64,000 nucleotides of DNA from Sedimenticola selenatireducens DSM 17993 (GTDB lineage Bacteria > Pseudomonadota > Gammaproteobacteria > Chromatiales > Chromatiaceae): assembly GCF_000428045.1 (NCBI RefSeq), contig NZ_ATZE01000004.1, forward strand, positions 1 to 64,000. Direction: 5' to 3'. Positions within the stretch are counted from its first letter, which is position 1. Each line of letters starts with the position of its first letter. Below, in pieces: positions 16,069 to 23,672 of this stretch. Below the pieces are notes generated by a model that saw only the letters and a list, made by a program, of their open reading frames with translations, was not told the origin of the DNA and did no database searches. The translations under genes were made by a program, and so were the position numbers.

Positions 16069-17147
16069 TCAGTGGCTCGCCGTATCGTCGCTGATCACGC
16101 CGCGCCGCAGCTGATCCAGCTCGATCGATTCAAACAGGGCGCGGAAGTTGCCCTCGCCGAACCCCTCGTTGCCCTTGCGCTGGATGATCTCGAAAAAGAT
16201 CGGACCGATCACGGTGCTGGTAAAGATCTGCAGCAGGAGGCCCTGGCCTCGGTGGGGGCGCTGTCGATCAGGATGCGATTTTTCCGCAGTCGCTCCAGGT
16301 CTTCACCGTGACCGGGCACCCGCTGGTCCACCTGGTCATAGTAGGTATCCAGAGTCTCCTGTAGCGGCACCTTCTTATGGCGCAGCTGCTCCACCGTGGC
16401 ATAGATATCATCCGTACCCAGGGCGATGTGTTGGATCCCCTCGCCATGGTAGGCGTGCAGGTACTCCTGGATTTGGGATTTGTCGTCACTGCTCTCGTTG
16501 ATCGGGATGCGGATCTTGCCGCAGGGGCTGGTCATGGCACGGGACTTGAGACCAGTCAGCTTGCCCTCGATATCAAAATAGCCCACCTCCCTGAAATTGA
16601 ACAGGCGAGCATAAAAGTCGGCCCACTCGTCCATGCGGCCGCGATAGACATTGTGGGTGAGGTGGTCGATGTAGGTGAAACCAACTCCCTTCGGGTACTG
16701 ATCGACCCCCTTGATGGGAACGAAGTCCACGTCATAGATGCTGCCCTTGTCACCATAGCGATCCACCAGGTAGATCAGGGAGTCACCGATCCCCTTGATG
16801 GTGGGAATGTTGAGTTCCATGGGGCCGGCCTTGGTCTCCACGCCCCAGGCGCCGTGCTCCAGGGCCATCTGGTAGGCGTGTGCCGCATCCTTCACCCGGA
16901 AGGCGATGGCGCAGGCACTGGGGCCGTGCTGTTGGGCGAACGAGCGCGGGAAGCCGGTTTTCTCCGCGTTGATGATGAAGTTGACGTCGCCCTGGCGGTA
17001 GAGGGTGACAGCCTTGGAACGGTGGCGGGCGATGGCGACGAAACCGAGCTGCTCGAACAGCTTGCCCAGTACCTCCGGCTCTGGTGAGGTGTACTCCACG
17101 AATTCGAACCCGTCGGTTCCCATCGGGTTATCCCAGAGTTGTCCCAT
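16069..17147 (-). pseudogene. hppD: 4-hydroxyphenylpyruvate dioxygenase, broken by a one-base frameshift
   Basis: HPD converts 4-hydroxyphenylpyruvate to homogentisate with a non-heme iron. From ATG 17147 (GGGAGG just upstream) the frame encodes a normal HPD with iron ligands His162 (DHLTHN) and His240 (IQHIALGTDD). After residue 300 (LIDSAPTE) it shifts and stops 13 codons later. Adding one base in the GGCC run near 16248 restores a typical HPD end ([31 protein letters not shown]), including the third iron ligand Glu, to a stop at 16069-16071 and a normal 359 residues. The truncated product would lack an iron ligand. A homopolymer sequencing error is as likely as a real mutation, because the downstream frame is intact. 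Confidence 0.88.
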
Positions 17148-17509
17148 GCTGCTCCTCCCGGCCGCTGGCCGATTCATGAGAAAAAATTATCAGCCGCGAA
17201 TGAACGCGGTGGACGACTCGGCCCTTCGGTAGGTTGGGGTGAGCGGAGCGAACCCCAACGCCCGGTGGATCCGTGCAATCCCCTTCGTTAGGGTTCGCAG
17301 GCTCACTCAACCTACACGCGCTGGTGGATGCACTTCGCTTGCCCACCCTGCCTGCCCAGGCGGTGACAGGTTGGGATAGCCTGGAAACCATTTGCACCCA
17401 TTCGCGTTCATTCCATCCTTAGGTCCGTAAACGGTGCACCCTTGCACCACTCCTCGCGGCTACATTCCTAAATGGACTGATTATTAGATAACCAGCGCAC
17501 TGCTCGGGT
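17148..17509. other. Gap between hppD and maiA
   Basis: About 360 bases holding the composite repeat described at 17190-17325 and a further GC-rich stretch to 17400. I see no ORF. The interruption means hppD may have its own promoter or depend on read-through. Confidence 0.5.
17190..17325. repeat. Composite dispersed repeat, copy A
   Basis: A GCCGCGAAT-AAC part runs directly into TAGGTTGGGG, with GTTGGGGT (17233-17240) pairing with ACCCCAAC (17252-17259). A second CTCAACCTACA end follows near 17315. Over 47 bases it aligns without gaps to copy B at 19211. It fills most of the gap between hppD and maiA. Confidence 0.6.
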
Positions 17510-18151
17510 TCAATGTGCGTCTGGCTGGTTATCCGGCTTGGCCCGCTCGAAGGCGTCGAGGGTCAGGCAGTGCTGCTCGATCGTCACGATGCGGGGATAG
17601 GGGTTCAGGTCCAGTTCGAAGCGGCGCGCGTTGTAGACCTGGGGTACCAGGCAGATATCCGCCAAGGTCACCCGTTCGCCGAAACAGAACGGCCCGTCGG
17701 GAGCGGTTTTCTCCAGTATCTGCTCGATCGGGCGGAACCCCTCGTCGATCCAGTGGCGATACCAGTTCAACTTCTGCGCCTCGCTGACTCCCAGTTCACC
17801 GGTCAGGTACTTTAGAATGCGCAGGTTGTTTACCGGGTGAATGTCACAGGCCACCATCTGTGCCAGGGCGCGGATCTGTGCCCGTTGCAGTGGATCACCC
17901 GGTAACAGGGGAGGTTCCGGCTCCACCTCATCCAGGTATTCGCAGATGGCCAGTGACTGTTGCAGCACCGCCTTATCCACAGTCAGTGCCGGCACCAATC
18001 CCTGGGGATTGACCGCCCGGTAATCCGTGCCGTGATCCTCACCCTTGAGCAGATTGACCGGCGCCTGTTGGTAGTCGAGCCCCTTCAGATTGAGCGTGAT
18101 ACGCACGCGGTAGGCGGCGGTAGAGCGGAAGTAGTCGTACAGTGTCATCAT
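17510..18151 (-). CDS. maiA: Maleylacetoacetate isomerase (zeta-class GST)
   Basis: A 213-residue zeta-class glutathione transferase that isomerises maleylacetoacetate (or maleylpyruvate) to the fumaryl form. The N-terminal thioredoxin-like domain has the zeta signature region YFRSTAAYRVRITL (Ser10 as the candidate catalytic residue), with Ala in place of the usual Cys. NPQGLVPAL supplies the cis-Pro loop, and QSLAICEYLDE binds glutathione. The C-terminal helical domain holds the typical FCFGERVTLADICLVPQVYNARRF. ATG 18151 overlaps the stop codon of the fumarylacetoacetase by four bases (ATGA), so the two are translationally coupled. Confidence 0.93.
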   Translation of the reverse strand: MMTLYDYFRSTAAYRVRITLNLKGLDYQQAPVNLLKGEDHGTDYRAVNPQGLVPALTVDKAVLQQSLAICEYLDEVEPEPPLLPGDPLQRAQIRALAQMVACDIHPVNNLRILKYLTGELGVSEAQKLNWYRHWIDEGFRPIEQILEKTAPDGPFCFGERVTLADICLVPQVYNARRFELDLNPYPRIVTIEQHCLTLDAFERAKPDNQPDAH

Positions 18152-22897: not shown

Positions 22898-22926
22898 AAT
22901 ATAGTTGCAAAAGCAACTAATAACAA
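22898..22926 (-). promoter_or_regulatory. Promoter of the aromatic cluster with an operator in the spacer
   Basis: On the minus strand there is a -35 TTGTTA (22921-22926), a 17-base spacer and a -10 TATATT (22898-22903). The spacer carries GTTGC-N4-GCAAC (22904-22917), part of an 18-base palindrome (22902-22919). It lies about 80 bases before the MBL gene start. The operator and its position in the spacer are the same as in the TRAP promoter at 57727-57755. Confidence 0.7.
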
Positions 22927-23180
22927 CATCTAAAAAAGTAGGCTAATTAAGGGGCCCTGAAATGGGCCGAACCAGGGGGTTCCCATGAGGGAAAGTATAG
23001 TTATTAACCCGGAAGTTTGGTGGGTGCCGGCTATTAGCCAGGGGGATGCGGTTCAGTCTGGATGATGATCGATAGGACCTGTAGTGCCGGATATGACCAA
23101 TTCACCATGTTTATACACAGGGATATCCGGCATGGTTTGCCAGTCCCGCCCATGACGCCGGGACTGGCGGCGGGGGAGGA

Positions 23181-23672
23181 TTAACTGGTAATGCAGAGTT
23201 CGCGGGCGCGTGCTTCCAGTTTACTCAATAGCTGATCAAACTCCTTAATCTCCTTGGCGTTGAACGGGGTGAGCAGCTGGCGTTCACGCTCCAGGGCCAG
23301 GGGGACTATCTGCTGATAGACCTTCATGCCCTTGGCAGCCAGTCTCAGTTGGGATTTGCGCCGGTCTTTTTTGTCGGTTTTGCGCAGCACCCGACCGGAC
23401 TTGGTCAGGCTGGAGACGGCCCGGCTTACCTGTACCTTGTCCATGTTGGTGCGCTCACAGATCTCGTTTGCCGAAAGGGGCTGATAATTACCGAGAACAG
23501 CGATTACCCGCCACTCCATGATGCTGATGTTAAATCGCTCCGAGTAGATAGTAGCGATACTGCCGGAAACAAAGTTACTTAACACGGACAGACGGTAAGG
23601 GATGAAGGTTTCAAGCTCGACTCGTGGTTCCTCACCGCTTTCACTGTTATTGGTTGTATTGTTCTGAGACAA
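23181..23672 (-). CDS. MarR-family regulator of the aromatic cluster
   Basis: A 163-residue winged-helix regulator at the head of the cluster and in the same orientation. The core (FIPYRLSVLSNF, then EWRVIAVLGNYQPLSANEI and MDKVQVSRAVSSLTKSGRVLRK, and the wing DRRKSQLRLAAKG) is the MarR DNA-binding fold. About half its residues are identical to the second MarR protein at 61166-61612, and the recognition helix (DKVQ-SRA) is nearly the same. It probably binds the GTTGC-N4-GCAAC site before the MBL gene and responds to an aromatic ligand. The first 20 residues are a polar, Asn-rich extension absent from the paralogue. Confidence 0.88.
   Translation of the reverse strand: MSQNNTTNNSESGEEPRVELETFIPYRLSVLSNFVSGSIATIYSERFNISIMEWRVIAVLGNYQPLSANEICERTNMDKVQVSRAVSSLTKSGRVLRKTDKKDRRKSQLRLAAKGMKVYQQIVPLALERERQLLTPFNAKEIKEFDQLLSKLEARARELCITS

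Follow-up and report, generated by a model that had tools for sequence, protein, structure and literature searches.

The window analysed here is a 64,000-nucleotide stretch of the Sedimenticola selenatireducens DSM 17993 genome (contig NZ_ATZE01000004.1, positions 1 to 64,000). It contains a predicted homogentisate degradation cluster of nine genes, in which a small VOC-fold protein is the candidate ring-opening dioxygenase. All nine genes are on the minus strand, between positions 13833 and 23672, and are listed in the order of transcription:

23181..23672, minus strand: MarR-family regulator, 163 aa (PF12802)
21860..22816, minus strand: MBL-fold protein, 318 aa, with the metal motif altered to HYHAVR (PF00753; PDB 8d2z, 59 % identity)
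20115..21785, minus strand: FAD monooxygenase, 556 aa, probable MhaA-like flavoprotein subunit of 3-hydroxyphenylacetate 6-hydroxylase (NF006002, PRK08132, 830 bits, cut-off 416)
19893..20099, minus strand: DUF2783 protein, 68 aa, probable MhaB-like coupling subunit (PF10932, 97.5 bits; placed after the flavoprotein; size of MhaB)
19313..19849, minus strand: VOC-fold protein, 178 aa, GTG start, probable homogentisate 1,2-dioxygenase (PF00903; homology to PDB 9u42; residues; context)
18148..19164, minus strand: fumarylacetoacetate hydrolase (FAH), short type, 338 aa (PF01557 and PF18288 above cut-off; TIGR01266 far below cut-off)
17510..18151, minus strand: maleylacetoacetate isomerase MaiA, 213 aa (TIGR01262, 298.5 bits, cut-off 171)
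16209..17177, minus strand: 4-hydroxyphenylpyruvate dioxygenase (HPD) open reading frame, 322 aa, frameshifted (TIGR01263, 318 bits, cut-off 277)
13833..15797, minus strand: acetoacetate–CoA ligase AacS, 654 aa (TIGR01217, 1004 bits, cut-off 521)

These family assignments confirm the HPD, MaiA, fumarylacetoacetase, aacS, FAD monooxygenase, DUF2783, VOC and MBL genes named in the initial annotation. The gaps from MBL to FAD, FAD to DUF2783 and DUF2783 to VOC are 74, 15 and 43 bp, followed by 148 bp between VOC and FAH and a 4 bp overlap of FAH and MaiA; because of these short gaps and the overlap, it is likely that the genes from MBL to MaiA share one transcript. A complete VOC gene is present in five congeners (G001, G002, G003, G006, and G008), with a contig-end fragment in a sixth (G005), and the gene is also found in two other members of the family (G017 and G018). 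Since all five congeners with the complete gene share the gene order of the block, and the VOC, DUF2783, FAD, MBL, and MarR proteins are 79–97 % identical, conservation of the block is well beyond chance.

Among the matches listed, the VOC protein belongs only to general VOC-type families; no NCBIfam family is above its cut-off, no Pfam or NCBIfam family names the enzyme as a homogentisate dioxygenase, and neither the HgmA_C and HgmA_N domains nor TIGR01015 were found in it. The search of the PDB returned a sole strong match, 9u42_A (E-value 1.7e-72, residues 3–176 of 178), released on 2025-07-23 under the title "Crystal Structure of Homogentisate 1,2-Dioxygenase from Acinetobacter in Complex with Zn ion". 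The two proteins are 65 % identical over 167 alignment columns (TM-score 0.87/0.91, root-mean-square deviation 1.8), and via the predicted model of the VOC protein (pLDDT 93.6), 9u42 was matched with a Z of 20.7 and a root-mean-square deviation of 1.7 over 165 residues, the next match having a Z of 16.6. The likeness to the Acinetobacter protein thus comprises full-length homology, fold, and active-site residues, the last being the same in the alignment. A relative is also present in an Acinetobacter baumannii record, in the order fahA-maiA-VOC-IclR-hppD; compared with this cluster, the window adds FAD, DUF2783, and MBL, and has a MarR regulator where that record has IclR.

Six residues (H8, H51, H85, H116, Y123, and E133) are invariant in all 42 aligned sequences, that of the window included, down to 33 % identity, and the last four are matched by H, H, Y, and E of catechol 2,3-dioxygenase 5zsz when the two proteins are aligned. 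From what is known of extradiol dioxygenases, and by alignment only, we take H8, H85, and E133 to be the iron ligands and H51, H116, and Y123 to be the second sphere. The VOC protein would therefore have presumed 2-His-1-Glu ligands, the presence of which was reported in the initial annotation and is upheld here, and an extradiol-type second sphere of His, His, and Tyr. Another single-domain VOC-fold enzyme, the L-DOPA dioxygenase of Streptomyces sclerotialus (PDB 6on1/6on3), is a more distant likeness (Z of 14.5 for 6on3), differing in its 16 % identity and catechol-type substrate. LinE and PcpA had been put forward as the chemical precedent; the analogy stands, but 9u42 is a closer one. LinE and PcpA are not among the structural matches listed for the VOC protein, an absence that excludes nothing. 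The precedent for homogentisate cleavage by a VOC protein is closer than had been supposed, and the novelty is lower.

The cupin dioxygenase HmgA (TIGR01015, PF20510/PF04209) is of an unrelated family; it occupies the same slot between HPD and FAH/MaiA as the VOC protein, with which it would share the reaction. The initial annotation had noted its absence from the cluster and proposed a search of the full genome, and that absence now extends to the whole assembly (37 contigs, listed as 100 % complete): neither the PF04209 profile, for canonical HmgA, nor a divergent cupin HmgA-like protein used as the query gave any match. The HmgA-like query also recovers canonical HmgA, finding all seven of the PF04209-positive VOC genomes (E-values 3e-10 to 3e-18). 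It represents a short, divergent cupin family of about 376 aa that sits between HPD and FAH (L078:5753-6883 and L079:4822-5961, for example) and is only marginally detected by PF04209, with TIGR01015 scores of 86–89 bits for L078 and L194 against a cut-off of 511. In the class sample described below it was sought in 34 genomes, including every genome with HPD and no PF04209; matches were found in 11 of the 34, and none in the genome of the window or in the other 15 VOC genomes among them. Gentisate dioxygenase was sought as a substitute for HmgA and not found, the genome of the window having only a weak, partial match of 24 bits, far under the 442-bit cut-off.

Comparison of operons shows VOC and cupin genes in the same position. 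The order HPD-HmgA-like-FAH-MaiA is found in genomes without a VOC orthologue (L078, L081, and L087, and on the other strand L079, L083, and L084), and the order HPD-VOC-FAH-MaiA in VOC genomes (L124, L126, L128, L129, L130, and L133). In the second operon type, the gene after MBL-FAD-DUF2783 is HmgA in L196, where the MarR gene is oppositely oriented, HmgA-like in L194, which has MarR upstream in the same orientation, and VOC in the window. Because the VOC gene occupies the HmgA slot in two operon types, this exchange is the strongest comparative evidence that the two proteins would perform one and the same step.

Based on the 65 % identity to 9u42 and the HmgA position held in numerous genomes that gave no HmgA match, it is very probable that this locus is a homogentisate pathway with a homogentisate 1,2-dioxygenase that is single-domain, VOC-fold, probably Fe(II)-dependent, and non-homologous to cupin HmgA. 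The suggestion in the initial annotation that the VOC protein might cleave homogentisate is thereby supported. In the proposed pathway, for which we infer the catalytic activity of the VOC protein, its metal, and the substrate of the FAD enzyme, homogentisate would be formed from tyrosine via HPD, the gene for which carries a frameshift in the assembly, and a second supply would most likely come from 3-hydroxyphenylacetate via the FAD and DUF2783 proteins. The VOC enzyme would open the ring to give maleylacetoacetate, which MaiA would isomerize; FAH would cleave the product of MaiA to fumarate and acetoacetate, AacS would activate the acetoacetate, and the MarR protein probably regulates the cluster.

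In a sample of 304 genomes from the class, PF04209 was found in 37, an HPD domain in 50, and a VOC orthologue (about 60 % identity or more) in eight, including the genome of the window. None of these eight has a cupin HmgA of either kind. Among the genomes with HPD, a cupin is present in 0 of the 7 with VOC versus 36 of the 43 without (Fisher P=3.4e-5, uncorrected for kinship); the seven include that of the window, represent six families, and are not fully independent. Leaving out the genome of the window, the count is 0 of 6. Seven genomes with HPD have neither a cupin nor a VOC orthologue. In two of these (G275 and G303) the HPD matches are only in long open frames of 622–638 aa, which, judged by length, are probably of the QuiC type, and two others (G126 and G232) have a VOC relative at 43–49 % identity. 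For the remaining three (G089, G123, and G323) no explanation was found.

At least 592 VOC relatives were found in a scan of genome contigs, and the best 80, a choice favouring close relatives, were made into loci, of which 49 extend for 5 kb or more to either side of VOC. By record label these 80 are mostly from Proteobacteria, with single records from Gemmatimonadetes, Vicinamibacteria, Krumholzibacteriia, Flavobacteriaceae, and Myxococcales, and three from Planctomycetes. Within 5 kb of VOC there is HPD in 45 loci, FAH of either type in 29, MaiA in 24, an FAD relative in 16, DUF2783 in 14, and MBL in five; at least one of HPD, FAH, MaiA, and FAD is present in 64 of the 80, and HPD is present in 30 of the 49 with long flanks. 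Where HPD is within 2.5 kb it is invariably on the same strand (44 of 44), usually upstream (42) and no more than 400 bp away (40). No match to HmgA or HmgA-like was seen in any of these best 80 loci. In two Neptuniibacter loci (L120 and L123) the order is FAH-VOC-MaiA and there is no HPD match anywhere in the genome, therefore either homogentisate must come from another source or the substrate must be different there.

L151, from a metagenome-assembled genome labelled Klebsiella pneumoniae, has an HPD-VOC pair that resembles those of the other, non-enteric records, and is possibly mislabelled. L221, on a plasmid of Enterobacter sp. JBIWA005 typed as conjugative, has VOC, an MFS transporter, FAH, and MaiA between insertion sequences; because of this setting, the VOC-FAH-MaiA module may be mobile between species.

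The FAD monooxygenase and DUF2783 genes are best explained by comparison with MhaAB, which in Pseudomonas putida U makes homogentisate from 3-hydroxyphenylacetate, as described in the part of the report available (PMC3053370). According to the same text, the counterparts in Burkholderia xenovorans LB400 adjoin hmgA1B1C1: a flavoprotein of 560 aa with 47 % identity to MhaA of P. putida U, and a partner of 60 aa with 35 % identity to MhaB (PMC3053370). The window has the same arrangement, a large FAD protein (556 aa, against 566/560 aa) and a small partner (68 aa, against 60 aa) beside homogentisate genes, the likeness being judged by size, gene order, and description. FAD and DUF2783 genes are also in one cluster with a cupin HmgA or HmgA-like gene in L194, L196, L201, and L203, and in L204 FAD is with HmgA and there is no DUF2783 match. 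Due to this clustering and the MhaAB precedent, the FAD and DUF2783 proteins are most likely MhaAB, producing homogentisate from 3-hydroxyphenylacetate, with the DUF2783 protein as the putative MhaB. In the open-licence literature, outside which most subscription papers fall, no statement linking DUF2783 with MhaB was found.

Of the two feeds into the pathway, that from tyrosine is in doubt in the window. The initial annotation correctly placed an HPD gene here, but it is not intact: the open reading frame stops at 16209, the normal C-terminus resumes in another frame to about 16070, and the first gap in the comparison with the sister locus L025 is near 16253. As the C-terminus is in another frame and the open frame is 360–379 aa in five congeners (G001, G002, G005, G006, and G008), hpd is read as frameshifted in the window, really or through a sequence error. 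The HPD domain is missing in three of the nine genomes of the genus examined, G003 (listed as 100 % complete) and G004 and G007 (both incomplete); in G003, which is in two contigs, the rest of the cluster is kept. The family members G017 and G018 likewise have VOC and no HPD domain. Because hpd is frameshifted in the window and absent from the complete congener G003, tyrosine may be minor or lost in part of the genus and 3-hydroxyphenylacetate may be the main feed. That the tyrosine branch is dead in this strain, with the cluster living on 3-hydroxyphenylacetate and the VOC protein still acting as the homogentisate dioxygenase, is a possibility that we take seriously while leaning slightly the other way. 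The frameshift and the genomes without HPD speak for it, yet the five congeners hold an open hpd and the frameshift may be an error in the draft sequence.

A number of observations weigh against the VOC protein being a homogentisate dioxygenase that stands in for HmgA. The function of 9u42 is known solely from the entry title; the entry calls the molecule "Glyoxalase", and the crystal contains Zn as its metal. Relatives at 33–46 % identity in other contexts keep the same active-site residues, therefore the invariant residues speak for VOC dioxygenase chemistry rather than for homogentisate specifically, as far as an alignment can indicate. Sixteen of the 80 VOC loci have no HPD, FAH, MaiA, or FAD within 5 kb, partly owing to contig ends, and nine of the 49 with long flanks have neither HPD nor FAD. 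The frameshift in the hpd of the window belongs here also, as does the opinion of the authors on the probable A. baumannii counterpart, which they judged to be probably inactive in the section of the study available (PMC7646211).

Cupin HmgA and VOC are also found together. For 50 of the 80 VOC-locus genomes, picked for longer contigs and isolates, HPD and the cupins were sought; HPD is above the cut-off in 44, and 11 also have a cupin HmgA, seven canonical and four HmgA-like (12 if G366, which has a weak 36 % HmgA-like match and was counted as negative, is included). Because of these 11 genomes, the displacement of cupin HmgA by VOC is not absolute. The frequency of the cupin differs with the context of the VOC gene, being 2 of 21 where window-type HPD is beside VOC, 0 of 4 where HPD is at about 50 % identity, 3 of 10 where FAD is near VOC, and 1 of 10 in the remaining loci. 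Where a distant HPD (41–46 %) is near VOC, all five genomes have the cupin (L102, L110, L113, L135, and L155), the distant HPD of L110 being 3 kb from VOC on the opposite strand. Due to this co-occurrence in five of five genomes, the distant HPD and VOC may be a second, added pathway, perhaps for another substrate.

Three other explanations for the VOC protein were weighed. The initial annotation had also allowed that it might cleave a hydroxylated product of the FAD enzyme, that is, that homogentisate is hydroxylated to a trihydroxyphenylacetate before the ring is opened. The FAD, DUF2783, and VOC genes do adjoin in the window, and the 16 VOC loci with an FAD relative nearby are in keeping with this. 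However, in 44 of the 45 HPD-VOC loci the 5 kb on each side of VOC contain no FAD relative, and FAD and DUF2783 cluster with cupin HmgA or HmgA-like genes in genomes without a VOC orthologue, which fits a 3-hydroxyphenylacetate 6-hydroxylase and agrees with the MhaAB precedent (in the portion of PMC3053370 available). The trihydroxyphenylacetate route was therefore rejected, and is extremely improbable. That another, unrecognized homogentisate dioxygenase is present elsewhere in the genome of the window is very improbable; G089, G123, and G323, with neither a cupin nor a VOC orthologue, point to another solution or to missing data, but both cupin queries were negative in this genome and the gentisate dioxygenase match was weak and partial.

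A VOC protein that is only accessory, or an inactive relative, with homogentisate merely exported as pyomelanin, is very improbable; this is in essence what the authors proposed for A. baumannii IC-5 in the excerpt available (PMC7646211). Against this, FAH and MaiA are near VOC in 29 and 24 of the 80 loci, all 42 aligned sequences share the active-site residues, and the Acinetobacter protein 9u42 is titled a homogentisate 1,2-dioxygenase. In the same excerpt, A. baumannii AB4353 is described as having no hmgA homologue; between hmgC and hmgR it has a gene for a putative type I ring-cleaving dioxygenase (PMC7646211). Because another A. baumannii record has the order fahA-maiA-VOC-IclR-hppD, this gene is very probably the orthologue of the VOC gene of the window. 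As far as this part of the study goes, the probable counterpart was taken for a non-functional HmgA homologue (PMC7646211), and a passage in another publication states that the enzymes of the homogentisate route in A. baumannii were not yet described (PMC6650585).

Returning to the VOC protein as the homogentisate dioxygenase, an enzyme of this type has already been deposited (9u42), although the kind is poorly annotated; what is new here is how VOC and cupin exchange places in operons, how the enzyme is distributed, and the likely identity of the FAD and DUF2783 proteins as MhaAB. No publication on 9u42, and nothing on a VOC-type homogentisate dioxygenase, was found in the open-licence literature, and wherever the examined plasmid records carry annotation the enzyme is a "VOC family protein". 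Because it is annotated only generically, HmgA-based pathway predictors may score many tyrosine degraders as incomplete. The swap of cupin and VOC in one operon slot would be a clean non-homologous replacement of a central catabolic enzyme. As a broader and tentative proposal, somewhat less likely than not, VOC-fold homogentisate dioxygenases might be a widespread non-homologous class, repeatedly swapped with two cupin classes (canonical HmgA and the short HmgA-like) in otherwise unchanged operons, with the MBL protein performing an undescribed step in the 3-hydroxyphenylacetate branch, such as the opening of a lactone or ester that either precedes or follows hydroxylation.

Among the 12 nearest FAD loci of other genomes (L194–L205), 11 have the MBL gene within the fetched stretch, the exception being L199; it is in none of the fetched stretches of the next seven (L206–L212). 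In the L199 genome the gene is found farther on in that region (L062). The MBL protein accompanies the 3-hydroxyphenylacetate branch. HxHxDH is the dinuclear metal motif of MBL proteins. It is absent from this one, called divergent in the initial annotation, HYHAVR being present in 17 of 17 aligned sequences, and because of this replacement the protein would keep at most one complete metal site. The entry title of its relative 8d2z names no function, and nothing relevant on it was found in the open-licence literature.

In addition, a 31-nt repeat is present in two inverted copies, one in the gap between MaiA and HPD (17229–17259) and one in the gap between VOC and FAH (19253–19283). Its first 17 bases have two matches in the window versus 0.03 expected, and it is probably an element resembling a repetitive extragenic palindrome or miniature inverted-repeat transposable element (REP/MITE-like).

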